The translations under genes were made by a program, and so were the position numbers. Shown here piece after piece: positions 1 to 14,590 of a DNA stretch of 64,000 bases. This DNA comes from Accumulibacter sp. (GTDB lineage Bacteria > Pseudomonadota > Gammaproteobacteria > Burkholderiales > Rhodocyclaceae): contig NZ_JAPUVI010000095.1 in NCBI RefSeq assembly GCF_029255285.1, forward strand, positions 62,001 through 126,000, in the 5' to 3' direction. The number at the start of each line of letters is the position of its first letter. Within the stretch, counting starts at the first letter, position 1. The notes under the pieces were generated by a model, which was not told the DNA's origin, did no database searches, and was given only the letters and a program-made list of their open reading frames with translations.

Positions 1-1813
1 GCTTTTTATTGGCCGAAGTTTTGAACTGATAAACCGTCGTCGGCCGAGGTTTGCCTTTACGATTTTTCTGCCAGTATTTGGCGCAGTTATGCTCGTCGGT
101 GTTCGGACCAGAAGAAGGGTAAGTCTCTCGAAATGCCGCGCACCATTCATCCGCTGTCGGAAGGCGTTTGCCGAAGGAATTGCCATACGCCTTAGCTTGC
201 TCAAGACTCACTGCGGTCGCTGGGAAATCCGCAATCGCCTCCTTCCAGTGGGTTGCGTTGCCCGGCGAAGTCGCAGTCGTGTCTTCGGCCGCAATAAGTT
301 TCCTCCACGCATCGGATGCGAAGGGGCTGTTCCAGGATCTGTCGAAAGCCGCAAACTGCCCGACGGTTACCGGATACTTGTCGACGTACAAAGCATCTGC
401 CTGTCCGGTCCTGCTTAACAACATGATTTTTCCGTCTGGCCAGCGAATCGCTCTCGGAAGGGACGTGGATGCCAGCCTGCCGTCGGCGTCGTCGCGCATG
501 AAGAGCACCGGAATGGCACCGAAGCGAAGACCGGTAGTAACTCGACTAAACCTGAATATGGGATTGTTGGCCAGTTGTTCTTGTACGAATCGCTCGGCTA
601 CCCTGCGTTCATTCAAGTCTCGACGCGCGTCGGCGACAGCTAGGTCAATTGGCTCGGCCATTGTCAGTCGCGCAAGCCGTCCGTAAAAAGACTCCGAGAA
701 ATCGCGCGCCGACTGGACCGATACCGGGGCCTGCATCCCTATCACATACGGCACGCCGGCGGCGTGGATGGATTGTGCCAGGCCGCGGCAGAGCTGACCG
801 TAGACCGCCGCCGAATCGCAGACTTGCAGAAAGACGAGTTGAGGAAGCGCTTTGTCTCCGGTTTTCCACAAGTCCCTAAGCTGGCCGCCGTAGACGCGAG
901 TCGCCAATCCTTCCTCGTCTTCCGCCTGGATTGCCGCGGCGTCGCCGGGTACCGGCGACGTGCCGTGGGCCAGGACATGGACGATATCCCAGTCCTTCTC
1001 GATGAGTTTGGCGGCGAGGGCGCCTGGGCTGGCGTGGTCCAAACACACGACGTCGAAGGCTCCTCGCCCCGCATTTCGCAGCAGATCGGCGATACCAGGT
1101 ATCGCGACTTTGGAAAGTGTGCTCGTCAAATCGCGTGGGTCGGACGCCACCAGCAAGACATCCAGGATGCCCTTGGCCCTACGGGTCGTCGCCGGAGCAA
1201 GTGTGTCGAGCTGGGGCAAGGAACGAACGAGAGACAGGTCACCGTGTTTTGCAAGTTCGTCGGTGCTCAGAACCAACTCCCAAGGAAGATAGGCCAACCA
1301 ATCGACCTTGTCGTATTCGATTGCCTCCAACTCCTCCTTTGGTATGCGCAGAATTCCTGCCTCGTTCAGTTCCCCATAGCTAGCTCGCTGCTCTTCGAGC
1401 GTGGGCATGATCCGCAGCCGCAGGCGTAGACCGCGGGAACGCGTTCTAGCAAACTTCAACGCGCCATCGCAGCACTGTGCCAGGAGATTTTCCTCACCAT
1501 TGCCGGCGCACAACATCGCTCGCAAGGCTTCGCTCAGACTCCCGTGCTCTTGCAGGAGCGTTCCCAGCTGCGGCAAGGGAACCAGGGAAAGGAGCAGGGA
1601 AGGTGGCTGAATACTCTTTCGCAGTTCTTCGTCCTGCACGAAAAGCCTGGCATAGAGCTTCACTCCTATGGAGTGAAGCTCGACCGTCAGATCGAGGTGG
1701 CTGGCTGTTTGCTGCACAATTATTTTCTGCGCCGTCGGGTCAGTGGGAGAAATCTCGCTCGTCAAACTCCCAAGCCATGGGTTGCTCCGAGTAATGCGCC
1801 GACCACAGACCAT
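1..1813 (-). CDS. CHAT caspase-like protease fused to FGE-sulfatase (SUMF1-like) domain, 3' end cut by window
   Basis: Reading the minus strand from ATG 1813 gives an open frame of about 604 codons that leaves the window at base 1. Residues ~150-400 form a CHAT domain: LPWELV near 185, the His motif DIVHVLAHG (His ~283) and the Cys motif VFLQVCDSAA (Cys ~332), followed by AAGVPYVIGMQAPVS. CHAT proteins are caspase-type cysteine peptidases. From residue ~470 a formylglycine-generating-enzyme-like fold begins (YVDKYPVTVGQF, then GKRLPTADEW near 553). This fold is shared by true FGEs and by C-lectin-type binding domains; the catalytic-cysteine region lies outside the window, so its activity is unknown. 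No signal peptide is seen. ATG 1813 lies inside the upstream gene with GGAGGG 12 bases ahead; TTG 1765 is an alternative start. Probably a cytoplasmic effector or sensor (inference). Confidence 0.85.
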   Translation of the reverse strand, partial: MVCGRRITRSNPWLGSLTSEISPTDPTAQKIIVQQTASHLDLTVELHSIGVKLYARLFVQDEELRKSIQPPSLLLSLVPLPQLGTLLQEHGSLSEALRAMLCAGNGEENLLAQCCDGALKFARTRSRGLRLRLRIMPTLEEQRASYGELNEAGILRIPKEELEAIEYDKVDWLAYLPWELVLSTDELAKHGDLSLVRSLPQLDTLAPATTRRAKGILDVLLVASDPRDLTSTLSKVAIPGIADLLRNAGRGAFDVVCLDHASPGALAAKLIEKDWDIVHVLAHGTSPVPGDAAAIQAEDEEGLATRVYGGQLRDLWKTGDKALPQLVFLQVCDSAAVYGQLCRGLAQSIHAAGVPYVIGMQAPVSVQSARDFSESFYGRLARLTMAEPIDLAVADARRDLNERRVAERFVQEQLANNPIFRFSRVTTGLRFGAIPVLFMRDDADGRLASTSLPRAIRWPDGKIMLLSRTGQADALYVDKYPVTVGQFAAFDRSWNSPFASDAWRKLIAAEDTTATSPGNATHWKEAIADFPATAVSLEQAKAYGNSFGKRLPTADEWCAAFRETYPSSGPNTDEHNCAKYWQKNRKGKPRPTTVYQFKTSANKK

Positions 1814-2711
1814 CCCTGACGTAGCCCTCCAGCAGGCAGACGTCTCTTTGTTCTTCCGGGCTCAAGTCGGTCCATAGGCTGCGCAGCGAGCCGACCCATT
1901 GTGCAATGACGCGCTCCCATGGCGCTGCGTTGAAGCGTAGCCTTATCTCGTAGGAGATTCGTGCCCATTTCAGCCCTCGGGGTACTTGAAGAATGAACGC
2001 GATGGCCGGCTGCCCCTGGCTGAATTGTTCCAGGCAGCGGAAACGCCAGGTGGCGACAACATCGGGCGGGACGGAGGTGCGGATCAGGACGTCCCTCCAG
2101 ACCCTGGTGACCGCTTGCGTAAATTTGGCTTTCAAGGTGGCGCCTGCTGCAGCCGCCGCGGCGGCCTTCGTGTCCTTGCCCAAGGACAAGGCCTCTGGAG
2201 TGGCGGCGGAGAGTTGCACCTGTCCGTTGAGTCCGATCTCCAGGGATTCCTCCCATTTCGCGGCATCCCGAGTTTCGGTTCTGGGGAAGAGCGCAAAAAA
2301 GCGCGGGTGTTCCCCGGTCTCGGAATCGGCTACCCAATCGCTTCGCAGATTGATTTCCGCTTCCTTGAAATCCAGGCTAGCCACACGCAAAGGCGCAAAG
2401 AAGAAATAAAACGCGTAGCGGTCGAGGTAGCCCGCCGCATCCAGGCTTGTACCGAAAGGATTCTTCAGGGTGTTGGAAAGTAAGGCTTCCAGGGAAGATT
2501 GCTCGATGATGCGGGCGGGAACCAGATAGGCAGGCAAGCCCAGGCATCGCACGGCCTGACGGGCTTCGTCGAGCCGCCTTCTTTCCGTGGTACTGAGAGC
2601 GCTGGCTGGGCCGAGTATTCCGTGGCGCTCGCGATAGCCAAGCAACCTGTCGAACAGGACTGAAGAGCTTGCGGGATCGTGCTGCCCTTCGGGAGCATCT
2701 AGGTTTGCCAT
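1740..2711 (-). CDS. Hypothetical protein upstream of the CHAT-FGE gene
   Basis: A 323-residue protein that I do not recognise. It starts at ATG 2711 behind a good GGAGGA site and ends inside the start region of the CHAT-FGE gene, so translation of the two is probably coupled. It is soluble, with no signal peptide or membrane segment. Visible features are an Ala-rich stretch near residues 185-192 and a mixed alpha/beta C-terminal half with many Trp and Arg residues. The gene before it on the same strand ends 22 bases upstream, so all three look like one transcript. A role as adaptor, substrate or regulator of the CHAT protein is inferred from position only. Confidence 0.7.
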   Translation of the reverse strand: MANLDAPEGQHDPASSSVLFDRLLGYRERHGILGPASALSTTERRRLDEARQAVRCLGLPAYLVPARIIEQSSLEALLSNTLKNPFGTSLDAAGYLDRYAFYFFFAPLRVASLDFKEAEINLRSDWVADSETGEHPRFFALFPRTETRDAAKWEESLEIGLNGQVQLSAATPEALSLGKDTKAAAAAAAGATLKAKFTQAVTRVWRDVLIRTSVPPDVVATWRFRCLEQFSQGQPAIAFILQVPRGLKWARISYEIRLRFNAAPWERVIAQWVGSLRSLWTDLSPEEQRDVCLLEGYVRDGLWSAHYSEQPMAWEFDERDFSH

Positions 2712-2733
2712 GAGTCCTCCATCTCCGTTGTGA

Positions 2734-3273
2734 TCATCGCGCCAGCCTGGCAGCCGACTGGCGGCCGTCGGCTTCGCCGCTCAGCGCATCGACGTCCACC
2801 ACGCGATGCAGCAGGCTGTAGGAAACACGCCACTGCTGTTGTCCGCAGACCAGCGTCACCGTCTTGTCGTTGAGCCGGACGACACGGCCGCTGCGCTGTT
2901 CCTGGTGGCGGTCGAGGAAACCGACGACATCGCCGATTGCCACTTCGTTCCGGCCCAGCCCCTGAGCCGCCTGTTCGCGGATCTCAACGTCGGCGCCGTC
3001 GAGGTTGATCGCGGCGTAGGAGATCAACCAGCGCTTGCGCGTCGCGTGATCGAGAACGAACACGTGTTTCCGCCGCAGTTCGAGAACCTGACCCGGGTGA
3101 GAGCGATTGGTCGCCGGGTCGAAGTAACTGATCGCCTGGCCGACGCGCAGCCGGGTCTGGACGGCAAGTGTCCAGCCCGGCTGGTCGAGAACGCGATCGA
3201 TCGCCGCGCGCAGGCGGAACAGTTCGAAGGCGGAGGCGCTGTTGAGGGCGGCGATGGTTTTGGAAAAGTCCAT
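2734..3273 (-). CDS. Hypothetical protein with two tandem SH3/KOW-like repeats
   Basis: About 179 residues from ATG 3273; a TTG at 3303 would add ten residues. A helical N-terminus (DFSKTIAALNSASAFELFRL) is followed by two similar units. The first, near residues 45-95, runs from RLRVGQAISYFDP to RWLISYAAI. The second, near 115-165, runs from EVAIGDVVGFLDRH to QWRVSYSLLHRV. Each has a Gly-rich strand pair and ends in a W-R/L-[IV]-S-Y motif, which suggests duplicated small beta-barrels of the KOW/SH3 kind that often bind nucleic acid or peptides (inference). It is the first gene of the minus-strand unit leading to the CHAT-FGE protein and is divergent from telA. Confidence 0.7.
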   Translation of the reverse strand: MDFSKTIAALNSASAFELFRLRAAIDRVLDQPGWTLAVQTRLRVGQAISYFDPATNRSHPGQVLELRRKHVFVLDHATRKRWLISYAAINLDGADVEIREQAAQGLGRNEVAIGDVVGFLDRHQEQRSGRVVRLNDKTVTLVCGQQQWRVSYSLLHRVVDVDALSGEADGRQSAARLAR

Positions 3274-3530
3274 GCTCGGCCGGTCGGCGTGCTTATTGGG
3301 CAAGCTCGGGTAGGCGGTGGCGATGCCGAATGCTACACCGGAACGAAACGGCGGAAACGGAAATCGCTCGACCAGGCGTGAGGCTCACCGCGGGTTTCGC
3401 CGGCTGGCCGGCAGGGCGCCTTCGGTCGCCGGCCGGGCGGCGTTGGCGGCCCCGCCGGCCGTCCCGTTCGTCGTCGGCCGCTGCCGCGGCGCCAGGCGGC
3501 AAGCCTTTCGCCGCTCGCTCGCCGACCCCT

Positions 3531-3652: not shown

Positions 3653-4783
3653 ATGAAACCGCTATTCGCCGATGCCGCGCCGGCCAACAAAACGCGCTCC
3701 ACGATGGACGGAACGCTCGCCGAGTCCCCGACCGCCCAGCCGGCGCCGCCGGTCGTGCCGCCGCAGGTGCCGGCGGCGCGCCCGGTGATGCCCTTGCCGG
3801 CCAGCCTGAATGTGCCGTCCGCCGCGCGCACGGTCAGTGAGTCCGACCTCGCGGCGCTGGGCGAGAAATCGACCAAACGGGTGGCGGCCATCTCCGAGCA
3901 ACTGCTCGGCATGGTGCGCGGCACGGGGGCCGACCAGTTCGGCGTGTCGCTCAACCAACTCGTCGCCACGGCACAACAGCTCGACCCCAAGCTTTTGTTC
4001 GACAAATCGCTGCTCGGCAAGCTGAAGGGCCTTTTCGTTTCCGCCAAAGAACAGGTCAAGTCGCAGTTTCGGTCGGTTTCGGGCCAACTCGACGCCCTGG
4101 TCGGCGAGATCGAACGTTCGGCACGTACCTACGAGCAGCGCATTCGCGAGCTCGACGACATGTATGCCGCCAACGGTGAGGAGTACACGGCACTCGGCGA
4201 GGCGGTGGAGCAGGGCAAGGAACTGCTCGCGGCGCTGAACGACGAACTGGCGCGTGCTCCCGAGACCAGCGATCCGATGGCGGCGCAGGCCATTGCCGAC
4301 CGCCGTCAGCTCGCCGTGCGCCTGGAGAAGCGGATCGACGACCTGAAGCGGGCGCAGATGATCGCCATGCAGACGGCGCCCGAGATCCGGCTGCTGCAGA
4401 ACAACTCGCGGATGCTGATCGGGAAGTTTCAGGACATCGTCGCGGTGACGATTCCGGCCTGGAAAAAGCAGTTCTCGCTGCACATTCTGATGGAGGAGCA
4501 GGCGAAGTCGGCGGCGCTGGTGACGGCCATCGACGACGCGACCAACGCGGCGCTGCGCAAGAACGCCGACCTGCTGCGACAGAATACGACCGAGATCGCG
4601 CGCGCCAACCAGCGCGCGCTGGTCGAGATGGAAACGCTGGAACATGTGCAGAAACAACTGCTCGGCGCTTTCGAGGATGTCGAGAAGATCAACCAGGAAG
4701 CCGCGGCGGCACGCGCGCAAACCGACGCCAAGCTTGGCGCCCTGCGCGACGAACTGCTCGCGCGCTTCCAGAAATCCACCTAG
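3653..4783 (+). CDS. telA: TelA-family toxic anion resistance protein
   Basis: 376 residues from ATG 3653 behind GGGAG; the frame is open further upstream but that part is not protein-like. A Pro/Ala-rich N-terminus of ~60 residues precedes the long helical TelA/KlaA domain, with the family hallmarks LQNNSRMLIGKFQDIV and VTIPAWKKQFSL in the second half. The length fits the family (about 360-400). TelA proteins are linked to tellurite and other toxic-anion or colicin tolerance; their biochemistry is unsettled. It is the first gene of a plus-strand cluster with a vWA protein and TerD, an association known from ter stress-response loci. Confidence 0.9.
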   Translation: MKPLFADAAPANKTRSTMDGTLAESPTAQPAPPVVPPQVPAARPVMPLPASLNVPSAARTVSESDLAALGEKSTKRVAAISEQLLGMVRGTGADQFGVSLNQLVATAQQLDPKLLFDKSLLGKLKGLFVSAKEQVKSQFRSVSGQLDALVGEIERSARTYEQRIRELDDMYAANGEEYTALGEAVEQGKELLAALNDELARAPETSDPMAAQAIADRRQLAVRLEKRIDDLKRAQMIAMQTAPEIRLLQNNSRMLIGKFQDIVAVTIPAWKKQFSLHILMEEQAKSAALVTAIDDATNAALRKNADLLRQNTTEIARANQRALVEMETLEHVQKQLLGAFEDVEKINQEAAAARAQTDAKLGALRDELLARFQKST

Positions 4784-4798
4784 CGGGAAGGACTTGCC

Positions 4799-5506
4799 AT
4801 GTCGCTGATCGACCTCAAGAAGAAGACCCGGATCGTGCTCGAAAAGCGTTCGCTGCCGCAGCCGCCGCGTTGCCGCGTCGGGCTGTGCATCGACATTTCG
4901 GGCTCGATGCACAATGAGTACCAGGACGGGCTGGTCCAGGAAACGGTTGACCGCCTGCTCGCCATCGCCGGCACTTTCGACGACAACGGCGAAATGGAAG
5001 TGTGGACCTTCAATCAGAAGTTCTCGACGCCGCCGCCGGCGCGCGCCGCCGATTTCGGCAACTACGTCAAGAAGGCGATCCTCGACAACCCGAAGGTGGA
5101 CAAGTGGGGCGGCACCAACTATGCGCCGGTGATGAATGCCGTTCTCGACGCCTACTTCCGCGGCGAGCGTGTCGTCAGCTCGGGGGGCTTCCTCGGTCTG
5201 TTCAAGAAGACCGAGCAGCGTCCGCCGCGCGATACGCACATTCCGGCGCTCTGCCTGTTCATTACCGATGGCGACAACAGCGACGAAGCGGCGGCCGAGA
5301 AGATCCTGCGCGAGGCGCGCCAGCACCAGATCTACTGGCAGTTGGTCGGCATCGGCAGCGATACCGATTTCCGTTTCATCAAGCAGATGGCCGCCGACCT
5401 TCCCAATGCCGGTTTCTGCCATTTTCCGAATCTGCGGATCAGCGACGAGGCGATCTACGAAGCCTTGCTGACCGCCGAACTCTGCGACTGGCTGCGCAAG
5501 CTCTGA
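4799..5506 (+). CDS. von Willebrand factor A protein of the Ter type (TerF/TerY-like)
   Basis: 235 residues, 15 bases after telA, with the site GGGAAGG before the ATG. It has a complete metal-ion-dependent adhesion site: DISGSM near residue 37, the GGTNYAPVM threonine near 105, and FITDGDNSDE near 155. Ter-locus vWA proteins act in the cytoplasm as metal-dependent scaffolds together with TerD proteins (family knowledge). No signal peptide is present. About 70 non-coding bases separate it from terD. Confidence 0.88.
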   Translation: MSLIDLKKKTRIVLEKRSLPQPPRCRVGLCIDISGSMHNEYQDGLVQETVDRLLAIAGTFDDNGEMEVWTFNQKFSTPPPARAADFGNYVKKAILDNPKVDKWGGTNYAPVMNAVLDAYFRGERVVSSGGFLGLFKKTEQRPPRDTHIPALCLFITDGDNSDEAAAEKILREARQHQIYWQLVGIGSDTDFRFIKQMAADLPNAGFCHFPNLRISDEAIYEALLTAELCDWLRKL

Positions 5507-5579
5507 CTCGCGCTGCGAGCCGCCGGCAGGCCCTCGGCAGCACCGTTCATCCGATCCACTCCGTGCAAAGGACTTCCAT

Positions 5580-6161
5580 ATGGCCATCAATCTGAAAAAG
5601 GGGCAGGGAATCAACCTGACCAAAGCGGCGCCCAAGCTGCGCATCGTCCGCGTCGGCATCGGCTGGGACATCACCCGGGTTCTCGGGCAGTGCGACCTCG
5701 ATGTCTGCGCCTTCGTCCTGAAGACCGTCGGCGAGGTCCCGGTCTGCCTGTCCGATGGCCATTTCGTCTTCTTCAACAACCTGCAGAGTCCCGAAGGCTT
5801 CCTCACGCATACCGGCGACAACCGGACCGGCGTCGGCGAAGGCGACGACGAAACGCTGAAGGTCGATCTCGCCGCCGCGCCGGCCGATGCGGCCGAGGTT
5901 TCGTTCATTGTCACCATGCACGAAGCGCTGGCTCGCCGGCAGCATTTCGGGATGGTCCAGAACGCCTATCTGAAGGTCTACAACGACGAGACCGGCGAGG
6001 TGCTCGCGGAGTACGATCTCGACGAGGAGTTCGCCGGGCAGACGGCCGTGCAGATCGGATCGCTCTTCCGCACTGGAAACGAATGGCAGTTCCAGGCCGT
6101 CGGCGCCGGCTATCAGCGCGAGTTGCTGGATTTCGTGCGGGGTTATGGCCTCGAAGCCTGA
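5580..6161 (+). CDS. terD: TerD-family stress-response protein
   Basis: 193 residues, the usual TerD length. It starts MAINLKKGQGINLTK, typical of TerD/TerZ/TerE, then has the calcium-binding core: GWDITRVLGQCDLDVCAFVL, SDGHFVFFNNLQSPEG and HTGDNRTGVGEGDDE. It ends with the family-typical AYLKVYNDETGEVLAEYDL. TerD proteins bind Ca2+ and are needed for tellurite and other stress resistance. AGGACTT precedes the ATG. The last 17 bases overlap the next gene. Which ter paralogue it is cannot be settled by eye. Confidence 0.92.
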   Translation: MAINLKKGQGINLTKAAPKLRIVRVGIGWDITRVLGQCDLDVCAFVLKTVGEVPVCLSDGHFVFFNNLQSPEGFLTHTGDNRTGVGEGDDETLKVDLAAAPADAAEVSFIVTMHEALARRQHFGMVQNAYLKVYNDETGEVLAEYDLDEEFAGQTAVQIGSLFRTGNEWQFQAVGAGYQRELLDFVRGYGLEA

Positions 6162-7116
6162 GCCCCGGCCGCGGCCTTTGTTCCAGGATGCCGGGGCGGC
6201 CGCCGCCAAGCCCCTGCGTCCACCGCCTCAGGCAACGGCGACACCGGCCTCGCCGCCGGCCGAAACGCCCGCGCCGCCGCGCCGCGTGCGGCCGCTCGAC
6301 CTGCCGCCGCCGTCCCCCCCGGCGGCGCTTCGTGTCACTCCACTGACGCTTCCCGAGCGGGCCGCCTCGGTCGCGCCGCCTTCGCCGGTGAAAGCGGTGG
6401 TGCTGCCGGATCCGGCGCCGCCCGTGGCGGCGACGGCAAGATATGCGCCGGCCTCGCTGCTCTTCGACGAAGGCAAGGGCTCCGACCTCGAACGGTTGAA
6501 GCGCAAGGCGATCGAGTCGTTCCCGGCGATCTCGGCCCGTCAGCTCGAAGCGCTCGACGAAGTGATGCGCGACCTGCTGCCGGTCGAGGTTTCGAATCTC
6601 GCCGCCTGGGGGAATGCGGTGTTGCGCCGCATCGAAGCGATGAGCGCCGAACTGCAGGCGCATGGCGCCACCGTGGCGAGCTGGAACGTCGGCGAGCTGA
6701 TTGAAAAGTGCCACCAGGTGATGGGTGCCAGCGGGCTATGGAAGATCATCCGGCGGAGTTCGCCGGGTTCACTGAAGCCGGCGCTCGAACTGATTCTCGC
6801 CCAGGTGCCACCGATGCTGGCCGCCCTCGACGACCTCGCACAGCGCTTCGCGCCCTGCCGCGATGTTCTGGCCGCCTCGCTCCTGCTGCTCAAGGTCGCG
6901 CCACAAGTCCTCGCGCTGCGCGACATCGAAGCGGAAGCGCTGGCGCGTCGCGGCCATCTGCTGACGGTTTCGGCGCAGCACTTCGATCTCCTCGAACCGC
7001 AGCTCGAGCAGCTCAGGCGCCAAGTGATCGCCTGGCAGAGCGAGGTCGAGCAGCTCGTCCGGGTGACTATCCCGGTCTGGGAACTGGCCAACGGCCGGCC
7101 GGGCGGACGGCCTTGA
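6145..7116 (+). CDS. TelA-like partner protein of the Ter cassette (hypothetical)
   Basis: 323 residues whose start overlaps terD by 17 bases. The first ~110 residues are Pro/Ala-rich and probably disordered. The rest is helical, with AISARQLEALDEVMRDLLP, a middle segment ELIEKCHQVMGASGLWKIIR, and the C-terminal stretch VEQLVRVTIPVWELANG. The last resembles the TelA signature VTIPAWKKQ seen in the first gene of this operon, so I read it as a shortened, diverged TelA relative or co-folding partner (inference). No membrane segment is seen. Position and overlap tie it to tellurite/stress function. Confidence 0.72.
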   Translation: MASKPEPRPRPLFQDAGAAAAKPLRPPPQATATPASPPAETPAPPRRVRPLDLPPPSPPAALRVTPLTLPERAASVAPPSPVKAVVLPDPAPPVAATARYAPASLLFDEGKGSDLERLKRKAIESFPAISARQLEALDEVMRDLLPVEVSNLAAWGNAVLRRIEAMSAELQAHGATVASWNVGELIEKCHQVMGASGLWKIIRRSSPGSLKPALELILAQVPPMLAALDDLAQRFAPCRDVLAASLLLLKVAPQVLALRDIEAEALARRGHLLTVSAQHFDLLEPQLEQLRRQVIAWQSEVEQLVRVTIPVWELANGRPGGRP

Positions 7117-8145: not shown

Positions 8146-9837
8146 TCAGGCGCTGCGCAGGTGCAGGCGTCGCGTCAGCCAGATCGCCGCGAAGGGCAGG
8201 AGCAGACCGAGTGCGATCGAAACGGCGAACAGCGCGCCGAGCTCGCTGTAATCGGCCGCGCTCTGGAGAACGCCGCTCACCGGGTCGCGTAGCTCGCGTT
8301 TGACTTCGAACACCTGGTTCAGGTGGCGGGTCGCCAGTTGTGAGGCCGACAAGGCCAGGTTGGTGAAGGACGCCATGACCGCGAAGTAGGTCGCTTTGAG
8401 TCTGGCCGGCGCCGAATTGGCGATCCAGGCCAGCATCGGTACCATCGCGATCTGCCCGAGCGGCGACTCGAGCGCCGTGTCGACCAGCGCGATGAAGCGC
8501 GCATCGACGATGCCGCCGCTGTGCGCCGCCGTCCATTCATGCAGACCGTAGTACATGCCGAGAGTCGGCAGGCTGAGCAGCGTGCCGGCGAGGGTCAGGA
8601 AACCGACGATGTAGGCGATCGAACGTTCGCCCATGAAGCGCCGAAAAGCGAACAGACCGAACAGCGTCAGCACGCTGGCGATCAGCGAGAGCTTGGCGAG
8701 GAAGGATTGATCGAAGCCGAGCGTGTCGATCATCCACCAGGTTGCGCCGGCGCCTGGACCGGGAACGGCGCGAAAGACAAAAATCACGATCGCGGTGCCG
8801 AGCAGAGTGCGGCGGGAGTCTTCGTCCAGCTCGCGCAACAGCCGGTTCATCAGAAAGGCGATCACCGCGCTGGAAGCGAGAAAAACCAACTCCTCGCCGA
8901 ACGCCGCTTGCGACAGCCCGACGGTGAGGCTGATGGCGACGAACAGCAGGCTGCCGCCGAGGATCCACCAGTTCGGCGCCACGGGTTCGAGCGGCGCCTC
9001 GAGCAGTTCGCGCAGCTTCGCTTCGGCGAAGCCGCGGGCTCGCAGTCGCTGCCGCTGTCGTCGCTCGATGACTGCGGCGAGCACGACGCCGGCCACCGAG
9101 AGCGCCGGGACGATCAGCGCAAGGGCATAGACTTGAACGTAAATCGCCGCCTTGGCGGCCGGCGGCAAGCTTTCGGCGCCCTCGAACAGAAGAACGTTGG
9201 CCACCGAGACGAGGACGCCGCCACCGACGATGGCGACCCGGCCGAGAGTCTGCAAGGTGGTGTTCATTCGCCGCCGCAGTTCCGGCGCCAGCGGCTTGCC
9301 GCGCTCGTCGACGCGGGGTACGGCTTCGACGGTCATGGCGTCGGCGACCACGTCCTGCAGCACGTAGCCCACCGGCGAGAGCAGGGCGGACAGAACGAAC
9401 CAGGCCTCGAGTGACATGACGGCACGCATGCGCTGCGGCTCGGCGACCAGACCGAGCATGATCAGCAGGCTGAGCGCGATCAGCGCGGCGCCGAGCCACA
9501 CCAGTTTGGCTTTGTGCCGCCACATCAGGTCCACCAGATGACCGAGCGGCATTTTCAGCGCCCAGGGAATTCCGGCCCAGAAACCCAGCGCCGCTAGGAA
9601 GGCGGCCGACAGGCCGAGGTACTCCTTGACGAAGAAGGTGGCGACGATACCGGTCAGGCCGGAGACCCCGGCGGCGAGATAGACCATCAACGGCGGCAGA
9701 TAGGAAAGCCGCATTTCGCGGCCCAGTCCGACGAGGTTTTCGGTGACCCGGCGGCCAAGGGTGGCGGGCAAGGTGTGCCACCGTTCCTGGAGCGACGCGG
9801 GCTCCCGGTCGCCGTGCCCGGGTAGATCGTTTCTCAC
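8146..9837 (-). CDS. Major facilitator transporter, folate-biopterin (BT1)-like
   Basis: 563 residues if translation starts at GTG 9837, which overlaps the stop of the TPR-CHAT gene (GTGA). The frame is open further upstream, but that part is only the CHAT gene in another frame. About twelve membrane segments are visible, starting with YLPPLMVYLAAGVSGLTGIV. The conserved LQDVVADAMTVEAV resembles the DVVVD motif of BT1 transporters. A long charged central loop (ERRQRQRLRARGFAEAKLRE) separates the halves. Inner-membrane location. The substrate is unknown; folate or pterins are the family precedent. It is the third gene of the hydrolase-CHAT-transporter operon. Confidence 0.8.
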   Translation of the reverse strand: MRNDLPGHGDREPASLQERWHTLPATLGRRVTENLVGLGREMRLSYLPPLMVYLAAGVSGLTGIVATFFVKEYLGLSAAFLAALGFWAGIPWALKMPLGHLVDLMWRHKAKLVWLGAALIALSLLIMLGLVAEPQRMRAVMSLEAWFVLSALLSPVGYVLQDVVADAMTVEAVPRVDERGKPLAPELRRRMNTTLQTLGRVAIVGGGVLVSVANVLLFEGAESLPPAAKAAIYVQVYALALIVPALSVAGVVLAAVIERRQRQRLRARGFAEAKLRELLEAPLEPVAPNWWILGGSLLFVAISLTVGLSQAAFGEELVFLASSAVIAFLMNRLLRELDEDSRRTLLGTAIVIFVFRAVPGPGAGATWWMIDTLGFDQSFLAKLSLIASVLTLFGLFAFRRFMGERSIAYIVGFLTLAGTLLSLPTLGMYYGLHEWTAAHSGGIVDARFIALVDTALESPLGQIAMVPMLAWIANSAPARLKATYFAVMASFTNLALSASQLATRHLNQVFEVKRELRDPVSGVLQSAADYSELGALFAVSIALGLLLPFAAIWLTRRLHLRSA

Positions 9838-12800
9838 AACCAGTTCCCCATCAACACGTAAGGTGCCCAGAAGTGGGGGTGACGAAAATCCGATTCCCCA
9901 TCCTGGCTCTTCAGGTGGCCCCTGAGCATCGCCAACTGCGCTTCGCGTAAGGCTTCCGCCTTGCTCATCAGCCGCTGCTCGCCACGCTGGCGGTAGAACT
10001 CGATCATCAGCGGGGCGGCGCCAACGTCCTTGACCGACCAGAGCGTTGCCAGTACGGCCTTGGCGCCGCTGGCGCGAAATGCCGCGCCGAGCGATTCCAT
10101 CCCCGCCACGGTGGTTCCGGAGTCGCAGGCAGACAGCGCGATCAGGTCGTACTGTCCAAGCCGCGGGGTCGGGTCGAAGATCTCGGAAGTGCTCAGCTTG
10201 TTGCCGTCGCCGAAAAGAAGGACTGACTTGTCTTTGTTCCCCGGCCTGAAATGAGTGGCAATGTGCAGGAAGTTGGGGCCGCCCGGCCCCCTGGGGCTCA
10301 TCAGGTGGCGCAGGGTTTCCGGCGTGAAACGCGTATCCAGATAGCGTCGTCCCGCGACGACGCCTTCCCCAGGCTGACAGCCGGCGCTCTGCGCGTCGCG
10401 AATGATGCCGCATACCTCGCGGTAGGCTCCGGGCAGGGGGACGTAGTCGAACGCCGCGTCGGCCAGCCCGGTGCCCAGTGCGGCACCTTGCCAGCGGCTC
10501 CGGGGAGCCGTTTCCAGTCCGTCGAACTTGCCACCGCCATCGGCGGTGAGCGTCACCAGCGCGTAACGTTCGATCAGATGCTGACCGCTCTGCGGGTCGA
10601 TCAGCGCGGCAAAGGGCAGGTCGCGCAGACTGCCGTAGGGGACAATCGCCCACTGTTGAATGGCGGCCTGCTCGCCCACTTGCTCCTCGGCCGGCGCTAT
10701 CAGGTGGCGGTAGAGCGCTTTCGCGGGCTCACGGTAGTCGTTCTTTCCCTGCTGGACGGCTTCGCGCAGGGATTCGACGAGCAGATCCAGTTCGCCTTCC
10801 GTCACCGCTCGCGTGAGCGGCACAGCGTTCTGCCCGGTGGTGACGATCAACATCAGCCCACGCGGGTCGGGCAACATGACCAGCCCGGCGGTGCGCAGCC
10901 CTCCGCTCTCCCGCTGCTGCATTTCGTCGAGCTTTTGCGACAGGCCCGTGCGCGCCATGTCGAACGATGCGAGCCGTTTCTCGTAAGCCTGGCGGCTCGC
11001 AGCCGCGAAACGTGCCGCGGCATCGGCGAGGACGTTGGCCGTGACCTGTTCCAGTTGGTTTCGCTGTGCGTCGAGGTCGGTGACTTGCGGATCGTCGGCG
11101 CTGATCCGCTCGCCCTTGACCCGGGCTTCGGCATTGCGGCGTTCGCGGACGTAGGCACGCCATCGACTGGCAAGCTGGTCGAGTTCCTCCCGGTAGGCTT
11201 GCTCTTCCGACGTCCAGGCCAGATCGTCCCGGCTGCCTCGGGTACCCGTACCATGGCGGCGCAGGAAGTCGGTCAGTTCGGCCTCCTTGAGCATCAGCAA
11301 CACCCGTTCCGCCTCGGCAATTCGTCCTCGCTTGACCAGCAGGCGCGCGAGGTCGCTATAGACATCCTCCACCTTGCGCGTGAACGAGTCGCGCATCGCC
11401 TGCTCAAGACCACGCGTGCCGGTCCGAAGCCGCTGGAGGGTGTTGACCGCGAGCTTGAGGAAGAAGATGGCCTCGTCAAGGGCCGCCTCGCCGCCCCGTC
11501 GCTCGAGCCAATAGCCCAGCAGAACCGCGAATACGGCGCGTGTCTCGATGGCATTCTCGGCCTGGGCCGGGTTCCCGACGCTGGCCAGCGAAACGAGACG
11601 AAATCCGCGCCTGAGCAAAGGCAGCACCTCGTCGTGCCGACCGAGGTGGAAGTAGGCATTGGCCAGAGGAATCAAACTTCGGGCGGTCGCCGCGTGATCC
11701 GGCCCAAAGGCATTTTGGTTGATCGCGAGCGCTCGGAGAAACAGGCGCAGGTTCTCGTCGTCCCGCCCGGCCCCTCGGTGAAGAAGCGCCACGAGCGTCA
11801 GGCTGCGGGCCGTGTTCGGATGGGCTGGCCCGAGAGTCTTCTCGTGTATCGCCAGCGCAAGCGCGGCCTGCTTACGCGCCTCCAGGTCATGATCCTTCGA
11901 TCGAAGGGCCACATTCAACAGGGCATCGGCGGTGTTGGGGTGTTGCGGGCCGAGGGCCTGTTGAATAATCGCGAGCGCCCGGGCGGATAAGCGCCGTGCC
12001 TCGTCGTACTGGCCGATCGAATCATGGAATAGCGCGAGGTTGCTCAGACTTGCCGCGGTATTCGGGTCATTGGGGCCGAGTGCTTTCTCCCTGACAGCGA
12101 GCGCCCGGCGAAACAAGGGCAGCGCCTCCGCATACCGCCCCATCGACAAGTAAGCCACCGCCAGGTTGGTCAATGGCATGGCGTTGTCCGGGTGATCGGG
12201 ACCGAGCGCTTTCTCGGTGATCGCCAACGCCCGGGCCGAGAATTCGTGCGCCATGTCGTCCTGACCCAGCGCGAGGTGCAGATTCGCGAGGTTGTTCGAG
12301 CTGAGAGCGGTATCCGGGTGGTCGGGTCCGACGGCCTTTTGTCGGATCGCGAGCGCCCGGCCGTAGAAAACCAGAGCCTCCTCGTACTGGCCCATCTGAT
12401 GGTAGACCGTCGCCAGGTTGTGTAGCGTGCCGGCGGTATCCTCGTCCTCGAACAACTGGGCCTTTTCCCTGATCGCGAGCGCTCTGAGGATTTGGGCCAA
12501 CGCTTCATCGTAGCGGCCCATTGCGGCGTACAGTCTGCCCAGGCTGTCCAAACGGTCGGCGGTGTCTGCGTGCTCGGGGCCCAGGACGGCTTCCGTAATC
12601 GTCAACGCCCGGCGAAACAAAGGCAGTGCCTCTTGGTAGCGGCCCATCGATTCATACAGACCGGCGAGGTTGGCCAGGCTATCGGCGGTGTCCTGATGAT
12701 CAGGGCCCAGCACTCTTTCCCTGACCGCCAACACCCGGCTGTAGAGGACGAGCGACTCGTCGTAGCGTCTCATCGATTCCAGGACATCGGCCAGGTCGTT

Positions 12801-13145
12801 CAGGCTCTCGACGGTGTCCTCATGGTCGGGGCCGACTGCTTTTTCACGGATTGCCAAGGCCCGGCGGTACAGAGGCAGGGCTTCTTGGTAGCGCCGCATC
12901 GATTCCAGAATGTCGGCCAGCCTGGTGAGGCTGCTTGCCGTGTCGGGGTGCCGTCGACCCCGAAGTGCCTCGTTCAGCTTAAGCGAGCGGGTTGCCACTG
13001 CAACGGCTTCACTGTGGCGACCCTGTCGGAGCAATTCGTCGGCCCGACTATCCAAGTACTCTCCAACGGCGTGGCTTTGCTGCGGCCAGACGACGTGGAC
13101 GATAGCTAGCAGAATGAAACAGGCGGCATGGTGGTGAGCCTTCAT
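9834..13145 (-). CDS. Exported TPR-CHAT caspase-like protein
   Basis: 1103 residues from ATG 13145, which overlaps the upstream stop (ATGA). The N-terminus is a signal peptide (FILLAIVHVVWPQQSHA, cleavage probably after SHA). Residues ~40-560 carry about eleven 42-residue kinesin-light-chain-type TPRs, each with a GPDHPDTA-like motif and MGRYEEALPL-type helices. A helical linker leads to a C-terminal CHAT domain: FLHIATHFRPG (His ~965) and LSACDSG (Cys ~1007), ending HPHFWAPYVLMGNWL. Both catalytic residues are present. Being exported distinguishes it from most cytoplasmic CHAT effectors. Its substrate is unknown; the flanking hydrolase and transporter are probably co-translated. Confidence 0.92.
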   Translation of the reverse strand: MKAHHHAACFILLAIVHVVWPQQSHAVGEYLDSRADELLRQGRHSEAVAVATRSLKLNEALRGRRHPDTASSLTRLADILESMRRYQEALPLYRRALAIREKAVGPDHEDTVESLNDLADVLESMRRYDESLVLYSRVLAVRERVLGPDHQDTADSLANLAGLYESMGRYQEALPLFRRALTITEAVLGPEHADTADRLDSLGRLYAAMGRYDEALAQILRALAIREKAQLFEDEDTAGTLHNLATVYHQMGQYEEALVFYGRALAIRQKAVGPDHPDTALSSNNLANLHLALGQDDMAHEFSARALAITEKALGPDHPDNAMPLTNLAVAYLSMGRYAEALPLFRRALAVREKALGPNDPNTAASLSNLALFHDSIGQYDEARRLSARALAIIQQALGPQHPNTADALLNVALRSKDHDLEARKQAALALAIHEKTLGPAHPNTARSLTLVALLHRGAGRDDENLRLFLRALAINQNAFGPDHAATARSLIPLANAYFHLGRHDEVLPLLRRGFRLVSLASVGNPAQAENAIETRAVFAVLLGYWLERRGGEAALDEAIFFLKLAVNTLQRLRTGTRGLEQAMRDSFTRKVEDVYSDLARLLVKRGRIAEAERVLLMLKEAELTDFLRRHGTGTRGSRDDLAWTSEEQAYREELDQLASRWRAYVRERRNAEARVKGERISADDPQVTDLDAQRNQLEQVTANVLADAAARFAAASRQAYEKRLASFDMARTGLSQKLDEMQQRESGGLRTAGLVMLPDPRGLMLIVTTGQNAVPLTRAVTEGELDLLVESLREAVQQGKNDYREPAKALYRHLIAPAEEQVGEQAAIQQWAIVPYGSLRDLPFAALIDPQSGQHLIERYALVTLTADGGGKFDGLETAPRSRWQGAALGTGLADAAFDYVPLPGAYREVCGIIRDAQSAGCQPGEGVVAGRRYLDTRFTPETLRHLMSPRGPGGPNFLHIATHFRPGNKDKSVLLFGDGNKLSTSEIFDPTPRLGQYDLIALSACDSGTTVAGMESLGAAFRASGAKAVLATLWSVKDVGAAPLMIEFYRQRGEQRLMSKAEALREAQLAMLRGHLKSQDGESDFRHPHFWAPYVLMGNWL

Positions 13146-14590
13146 TGCCTGAACTCCCAATAGGTGCCCTTGGCACCGCCATCGACTCGCTTTAGCCGCG
13201 GGCGTCTGTCGGGGGGCAGGCCGTGGTGGATGAGCACGAAAAGGTCGCTCATCACGCTGGCGTTGTCGCCGAAATAGCTGTGACTGAGGCCGAACCACTC
13301 GCGAGTGATGGCGCTCGCGTCGATCGAATCGAGCTTGTTGAAAACAGCGATGTCGGCCCCCCCGGAACCCAGCCGCGGCTCGCCATGCAGCCAGGCTGAA
13401 AGGCTCACCGGGAGGTCCTGGTCCGAGGCGTAGAGCGTGAAGCGCGGCGTGTTGCTGGCGGCCAGTTCGAACACCCAGCGCTGGCGGAACTCTTCGCGGC
13501 CAATGTCGGGCGAGGCGAGCACCACCTGGCGGAAAGCGTCTCGGGCACTGGGACGACGACGCAGCAGCTCCGCCAGGCCCTGCGTGAGGATGCGGTTGCC
13601 CATGCTGTGCGCGACCACATAGACCGGCACGCCCCGACCAAGGCGGCTGAGCTGGTCGAGTACGTCGGCAATCTGCCGCCAGGCGTTGCGGGCGTCTTCC
13701 TCGTCTTTCACGTAAGCCAACAGTTGACCGTCCGAGGGCCAACTGTAGAGCACCGTTGGGCCGGTGAAAGCCAGGTCGTAGGCGAACTGCGCGGCGCGCT
13801 GCGCGGCTTCCGCGAAAGAGTTGTTGAAGCCGTGCACGAAGAGCAGGACGCCCGGCTTTCCGAACGCGCCGGCGCGGCGCGCCAATTCAGCCTGCCACTC
13901 GGAGGGCGTCAAGGCCGTCAAGCCTGGCGCCAGGACGACGTGCCGGTCGGCATCGGCGTCCCACTCGAGGCGCAGTAACGACGGGCTTTCGAGCCTGGCC
14001 CAGCGGTGGTCGGCGGGAATGGAGACCTCGACACTACCGAAGTGCAGGCCCTTGCTGAGCTCCTTGCCGAAGGCCTTGGCCGCGTTGGCGGCACCCGTAG
14101 TCTGGCGGCTGGTGGCGAAATAGAGTCGTAGCCAGTCGTGACGCCTGGCTGTGTCGAGCGTCCCCGGAGGAGCGGCTCTGGGTGGCGCGGGACTGGCCGC
14201 CGCTTGCCTGGCCACAGCGCGCAGGCGCGTTTGCTCGGCGGGACCGCGAGTGGCTTCCCGAGCGATGGCGGCGAGATCGTCGGCACGGTAGTGGACCGTC
14301 AGTTCGGCGGTAGGCTCGTGGCCGCATAGCGCGGCGTCGAAAGGTATGACTCGGACTTCGCCCTCGGTCAGATCGGGCCACAGCTTTTCCCGCATGCTTC
14401 GACTGGCGACCAGAGGGACAAGATCGCCCAGCGGCGGACCGTCCGTTGTAAAGCGCATCTGGCGCGTCTGGACGAACTCACGTCCGGGAACGAAGGATTT
14501 TCCCTGTACGCAGAGCCGTATTTCGTCGCACCGAGCGGGTACCGGGGCGAGAAGGAGCAGAGCGACGGAAACCACTGACAGAAAGCGCAT
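13142..14590 (-). CDS. Exported alpha/beta hydrolase, DUF900 family
   Basis: 482 residues from ATG 14590 behind GGGAGGAG. A signal peptide (SVVSVALLLLAPVPARC) precedes an N-terminal part that I do not recognise (to ~150) and a DUF900 alpha/beta hydrolase domain. That domain shows LLFVHGFNNSF, VLYSWPSDG, the nucleophile elbow VVAHSMG (Ser ~329), SPDIG (Asp ~362) and LSHSYF (His ~437). A Cys at residue 21 could be lipidated, but the preceding PVPAR is not a good lipobox. The substrate is unknown; the family resembles lipases and esterases. It heads an operon with the TPR-CHAT protease and the transporter, sharing 4-base overlaps. Confidence 0.88.
   Translation of the reverse strand: MRFLSVVSVALLLLAPVPARCDEIRLCVQGKSFVPGREFVQTRQMRFTTDGPPLGDLVPLVASRSMREKLWPDLTEGEVRVIPFDAALCGHEPTAELTVHYRADDLAAIAREATRGPAEQTRLRAVARQAAASPAPPRAAPPGTLDTARRHDWLRLYFATSRQTTGAANAAKAFGKELSKGLHFGSVEVSIPADHRWARLESPSLLRLEWDADADRHVVLAPGLTALTPSEWQAELARRAGAFGKPGVLLFVHGFNNSFAEAAQRAAQFAYDLAFTGPTVLYSWPSDGQLLAYVKDEEDARNAWRQIADVLDQLSRLGRGVPVYVVAHSMGNRILTQGLAELLRRRPSARDAFRQVVLASPDIGREEFRQRWVFELAASNTPRFTLYASDQDLPVSLSAWLHGEPRLGSGGADIAVFNKLDSIDASAITREWFGLSHSYFGDNASVMSDLFVLIHHGLPPDRRPRLKRVDGGAKGTYWEFRQ

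Follow-up and report, generated by a model that had tools for sequence, protein, structure and literature searches.

A low-GC gene unit of Accumulibacter sp. combining a CHAT-FGE fusion protein with a KAP NTPase: a predicted conflict module

A stretch of 64,000 nucleotides from Accumulibacter sp. (assembly GCF_029255285.1, contig NZ_JAPUVI010000095.1, here C95:62001-126000 and hereafter the window) carries near its left end the gene of a CHAT protease fused to a domain of the formylglycine-generating enzyme (FGE) type, CHAT-FGE, preceded by a gene encoding a 323-residue protein, unk323, and followed, outside the window, by the gene of a KAP P-loop nucleoside triphosphatase (NTPase). With a probability of roughly 55%, and through functional steps all of which we infer, these three genes constitute a horizontally acquired, soluble, nucleoside triphosphate-dependent conflict module. 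The best reading of the unit is that of a variant of the published FGS/NTPase systems, themselves predicted to act against invaders, and its function is accordingly a predicted one; the domains, the catalytic residues, the missing FGE cysteine pair, the gene order and the foreign composition are observed. A preliminary description had proposed a sensing and killing module made of CHAT-FGE and its two upstream genes, unk323 and a gene with SH3-like repeats; unk323 and CHAT-FGE keep their place in a probable conflict module, and the SH3-like gene probably gives way to KAP. The genome comprises 4.19 Mb in 113 contigs, and C95 continues to the left of the window (L006); window positions equal L006 positions minus 16000.

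A CHAT protease fused to an FGE domain

CHAT-FGE is a real and complete fusion protein, encoded on the minus strand at -247..1813 (L006:15753-17813) by a single frame of 686 residues with zero internal stops. Residues 1-604 lie inside the window and the leftward extension of the contig supplied the remaining 82, which agrees with the earlier claim that the gene was incomplete only at its 3' end; the uninterrupted frame also speaks against the possibility, raised at the same time, that a sequencing frameshift had joined two separate genes. The CHAT domain (PF12770) covers residues 171-403 (E 1.3e-20, 74.5 bits against a cut-off of 24), and within it His283 (codon CAC, 965..967, minus strand) and Cys332 (codon TGC, 818..820, minus strand) are matched by His and Cys in each of the 10 other aligned CHAT sequences. 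The protein is thus a CHAT protease by domain and by both catalytic residues, and the FGE-sulfatase domain (PF03781) follows in the same frame at residues 471-617 (E 1.6e-14, 54.6 bits against a cut-off of 23.3), matching profile positions 33-189 of 255, so that the fusion first described is borne out. The ATG start taken here places the first 74 bp of the gene within unk323; a GTG further on, at codon 33, is a possible alternative.

The FGE half belongs to the FGE/FGS fold, PF03781 being above its cut-off, and retains RLPTADEW, GN, GGS and GFR, landmarks of the other FGE domains of the genome. In formylglycine-generating enzymes a cysteine pair following GGSY provides the catalytic active-site residues. 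The solved SUMF1 chain 2aii reads GGSYMCHRSYC in this loop, whereas CHAT-FGE reads GGSYNDWFDLKTDEYS, without cysteines, and no cysteine pair with four residues between its members is found after GGSY in it. Because the loop lacks this pair, the candidate function of formylglycine-generating enzyme was dropped: the domain is unlikely to be such an enzyme, and from its sequence ligand binding is more likely. The check for catalytic cysteines advised in the preliminary description hence came out negative.

The KAP NTPase and unk323

The KAP gene starts 57 bp downstream of CHAT-FGE, at -305 to -2749 on the minus strand (L006:13251-15695, outside the window), and encodes 814 residues. Its KAP domain (PF07693, residues 70-328, E 2.2e-20, 73.5 bits against a cut-off of 20) displays, in the alignment A1, a Walker A motif GDWGAGKSS and a Walker B motif CFVDDLDRC of the D-D-x-D-R form, and the protein is a KAP NTPase on all three counts. 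Members of the KAP family often carry membrane inserts. By hydrophobicity these are absent from the 814-residue protein, in which no 19-residue peak exceeds 1.1, and its tail gives weak TPR-type matches (Pfam, NCBIfam). The PADLOC profiles of the KAP-type defence ATPases PifA (E 1.1e-18) and QatA (E 2.3e-12) match the KAP domain; the NCBIfam QatA profile reaches 46.9 bits where its cut-off is 600, and no Qat partner genes were seen. A terminator-like site lies 116 bp past the KAP stop, a consensus match only, in a region with 13 such sites against 7.5 in shuffles. KAP is probably the third member of the unit, in place of the SH3-like gene.

The first gene of the unit, unk323 (1740..2711, minus strand), was described as being of no known family, and the searches agree: zero matches were obtained in Pfam to E 10, NCBIfam to E 0.1 and PHROGs to E 1, the best match in the PDB has an E of 0.61, and PADLOC gives one weak match (E 0.022). 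No toxin or membrane feature was seen, the hydrophobic peak being 0.87. Among 200 related genomes the gene is found in its own genome alone; plasmids and phages hold no relative, and neither do viral or genome contigs in exact short-peptide scans, which reach close relatives only. A search of the class returned 7 of 369 genomes, namely its own and six with weak matches (E 5e-4 to 0.0095). Two of these six (L010 and L013) fall in what we take to be PBP1A-like proteins, over residues ~14-78 at 30-32% identity, and were treated as minor or chance similarity, not as relatives.

Composition and flanking genes

The three genes are collinear, with the 74 bp overlap followed by the 57 bp gap, and coincide with a compositional anomaly. 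When the region between -8000 and 10000 is divided into steps of 500 bases, all 11 steps from -3000 to 2500 have a GC content of 0.49-0.60, and the remaining 25 range over 0.62-0.75. GC content at third codon positions (GC3) is 0.63 in KAP, 0.65 in CHAT-FGE and 0.68 in unk323; a further 12 genes that were measured give 0.79-0.87. The unit is therefore probably a rare, foreign-looking low-GC island made of unk323, CHAT-FGE and KAP.

The SH3-like gene (2734..3303, minus strand) is among the 12, with a GC3 of 0.81. The duplication described in its 189-residue product is present, residues 49-100 matching residues 118-166 with a score of 43 (best of 300 shuffles, 41), and the protein shows weak matches to PF23291 (KOW; E 0.004, under the cut-off) and to phrog_2251 (E 4.4e-6). 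Relatives occur in 16 of 61 genomes (22 match rows, its own included in both counts). At 12 of 12 relative loci, from 11 genomes, the neighbours are other ones, several loci sharing the same neighbours, and no unk323, CHAT-FGE, KAP or TelA was detected there (tblastn, 1e-8), although 4 of the 12 loci end early at contig ends. Owing to its host-like composition and its different neighbours in relatives, the SH3-like gene is probably a bystander and was dropped as a component of the unit; the comparison of gene neighbourhoods advised in the preliminary description goes against it. Since unk323 starts only 22 bp past its stop, on the same strand, both may nevertheless be carried on one transcript. 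The SH3/KOW-like genes are a small multi-copy family: one related genome (G035) holds six match rows, on contigs C31, C62, C83, C90 and C106, with varied neighbours; two of these rows are incomplete and contain a stop.

Divergent from the unit, on the plus strand at 3653-7116, lies a cluster of TelA, vWA-TerF and TerD genes (Pfam) with a gene for a 323-residue protein that has no Pfam match. It occurs in 6 of 28 genomes of the genus, own included, and at all 5 other loci fetched its four genes recur in an unchanged order. A histidine kinase found on the other side of the unit occurs in 7 of 28, again own included. None of these ten flank-gene loci (five of each kind) holds a match to unk323, CHAT-FGE or KAP at a tblastn filter of 1e-10 and 40% identity, and the Ter cluster was dropped as a partner. 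Because the flanks recur in relatives without the low-GC genes, the three genes of the unit appear to be later arrivals, set between older genes of the genus: the SH3-like gene and the Ter cluster on one side and the two-component system on the other. None of the relatives examined has both flanks adjacent. Further along the window, 8 kb from the CHAT-FGE locus, a second CHAT protein of 1302 residues (9834-13742, minus strand) carries TPR repeats and a CHAT domain at residues 1004-1300 (Pfam, E 8.6e-49); the FxSxx_TPR profile gives it 207.6 bits, under the cut-off of 300.

Relatives of the unit and other FGE proteins

Relatives of CHAT-FGE were found in 23 of 299 genomes of the phylum, own included, in 3 plasmids and in 0 phages, and beyond its own genome all matches listed are partial, spanning at most ~240 of 686 residues in the phylum and 43% of the query in plasmids. 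KAP relatives were found in 11 of 274 genomes of the class and, with the two-row profile A2, in 6 of 378 and 3 of 349 genomes, its own being included each time; those other than its own match NTPase segments alone, as do the 6 plasmid records, and A2 found none in viral contigs. A scan of genome contigs with A1 returned at least 590 stretches, of which the best 80 of 310 relatives are considered here. The sole relative found over both NTPase and tail is from Kitasatospora sp. DSM 101779 (144 bits in total, 80 of them in the tail, 28% identity), and it has no plasmid match. This protein (L162:9923-13136) is followed by a gene whose 215-residue product is not CHAT and looks, by eye, hydrophobic towards its N-terminus; with its short neighbour it is possibly a separate two-gene KAP system.

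Linkage of KAP and FGE domains does occur elsewhere. The KAP query finds 118 matching reading frames (E 1e-4) across 132 loci, 125 from two KAP scans and 7 from plasmids. Ten of these frames also carry an FGE domain according to a profile that includes some wrong-strand rows; three of the ten were tested with Pfam and all three were confirmed. At L217, L199 and L183 the short genes next to the KAP-FGE genes presumably resemble an accessory protein of diversity-generating retroelements (DGRs), and these KAP-FGE proteins are possible retroelement targets.

DGR-driven variation had also been suggested for the FGE domain of CHAT-FGE. The genome does contain three RVT_1 loci, 13 FGE matches and two retroelements of textbook form. 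That of contig C63 (L104:4140-9705) comprises a reverse transcriptase, a template (L104:8582-8709) and two targets with FGE domains, whose variable copies (6756-6883 and 9540-9668) have 14 and 16 template adenines changed and one other base each; in the 967-residue target FGE is the only domain by Pfam. That of C60 (L103:1-4647) has a template (L103:2804-2929) and one variable copy (2521-2646; 14 adenines and 2 other bases changed) in the gene of a NACHT-FGE protein, an open frame of 883 residues cut at the contig start. Neither of these two loci matched in 30 kb of C95, a comparison that left out the third reverse transcriptase locus (C93), and the FGE domain of CHAT-FGE was dropped as a target of the C63 and C60 templates. 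Other large FGE proteins of the genome, on contigs C1 (L105:1642-5739), C85 (L108:2526-4883) and C35 (L106:4157-6826), are by Pfam NACHT-FGE, nSTAND1-FGE and FGE only, respectively.

Discussion

The FGS-centred NTPase systems predicted to counter invaders pair FGS with STAND, KAP or AP-GTPase switches and with caspase, trypsin or other effectors, and their FGS domain is proposed to bind invader molecules (Kaur et al. 2021, PMC8195603). The Accumulibacter unit has in common with them an FGE/FGS candidate sensor, a KAP switch and a caspase-like effector. In the core architecture outlined in that report, NTPase and FGS form one chain with the effector or an adaptor at its N-terminus; here, in contrast, the protease carries FGS, a gene of its own encodes KAP with a repeat-like tail, and unk323 is added. 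The word CHAT is absent from the main text of that report. Sensors of the FGE/CLec type diversified by DGRs have been described in multicellular bacteria together with NTPases, some of them KAP, and one target holds CHAT and TIR (PMC10907252, in the sections concerned); unlike these, the FGE domain of CHAT-FGE matches neither tested template of its own genome. Likewise, 33 of 671 metacaspases carry an FGE-sulfatase domain (PMC3501461) and so join a caspase-like protease to FGE-sulfatase on one chain, but through Peptidase_C14 instead of CHAT, and the passages of that report on these fusions describe no KAP partner. CHAT proteases serve in defence in Borvo and type III-E CRISPR, among the systems treated in PMC10952713. 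In PADLOC, the SAVED_CHAT profile overlaps residues 234-382 of CHAT-FGE (E 3e-7), and the ten proteins scanned include no SAVED, CRISPR or Borvo partner. As for the VMAP/MoxR-vWA ternary system, ten Pfam-scanned proteins include no MoxR or VMAP, and the nearby vWA protein is TerF-like, a member of the Ter cluster. No paper bringing a CHAT domain and FGE-sulfatase together was found in the open-licence literature.

Based on these likenesses, we may hypothesize that the CHAT protein would bind an invader-derived ligand through its FGE-fold end, which is C-type-lectin-like, and that the KAP ATPase would act as a nucleotide-driven assembly switch, its repeat-like tail serving as scaffold. CHAT proteases clustered in this way could then turn active and cut cellular proteins, so that the infected cell would be arrested or killed by proteolysis, with unk323 as a putative adaptor, inhibitor or first substrate. 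A more specific version, a split arrangement on three chains with a CHAT protease bearing its own lectin-like sensor, a separate KAP assembler with a repeat tail and unk323 as the first member of a novel family of effectors or substrates, is put forward only tentatively.

Because the unit is so rare, the case for co-function relies on anatomy, composition and the roles of these domains elsewhere, and several observations weigh against it. No second locus with the order unk323, CHAT-FGE and KAP emerged from the searches for relatives. At six other CHAT loci that were read (the gene called at the L057 match being on the wrong strand) and at L109-L111, fetched for CHAT/FGE similarity, KAP and unk323 gave no tblastn match (1e-3); conversely, among the neighbours at 130 loci with KAP similarity a CHAT profile found nothing convincing and one weak match (L189, E 0.0064), its matches at L109 and L110 arising by construction, as both are part of the profile. 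Nor was a CHAT or FGE match found near the Kitasatospora relative. Promoter-like sites number 0 in the region (1.9 in shuffles), and single-sequence structure models were unusable both for unk323 (mean predicted local distance difference test score, pLDDT, of 36.9) and for the part of CHAT-FGE inside the window (34.3).

The absence of the gene order from the other genomes searched, and of a convincing CHAT gene beside KAP elsewhere, would fit separate foreign genes gathered in one low-GC accessory patch with no joint function. We regard this as improbable in view of the tight collinear spacing, the gene overlap and the matching composition, and of the FGE-KAP linkage seen at other loci and reported in print (PMC8195603, in its account of FGS-centred systems). 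A somewhat better, still doubtful, alternative makes unk323 the substrate on which CHAT acts, as a killing protein kept in check or as the inhibitor of one, while FGE senses and KAP regulates: the unk323 gene lies immediately upstream and overlaps CHAT-FGE, and in type III-E CRISPR the CHAT protease Csx29 cleaves its partner Csx30 (as given in PMC10952713), but unk323 displays neither a toxin or membrane feature nor a family, and no cleavage site is predictable in it. Adjacency is also what would link the three genes to the divergent TelA/vWA/TerD cluster, which begins at 3653, as an accessory in stress response; yet the SH3-like gene intervenes, the composition differs and the 5 other cluster loci give no match to the unit at the 40% identity filter, which leaves this explanation very unlikely. 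We therefore retain the conflict module of unk323, CHAT-FGE and KAP as the preferred reading.

If this reading is correct, the sensor, the protease and the NTPase switch of predicted apoptosis-like systems can be redistributed among chains, and the substrate of the protease may be encoded by the adjoining gene. The unit would also provide a compact, soluble three-gene set of ~5.5 kb for direct tests of the control exerted by a KAP NTPase over a caspase-like protease.

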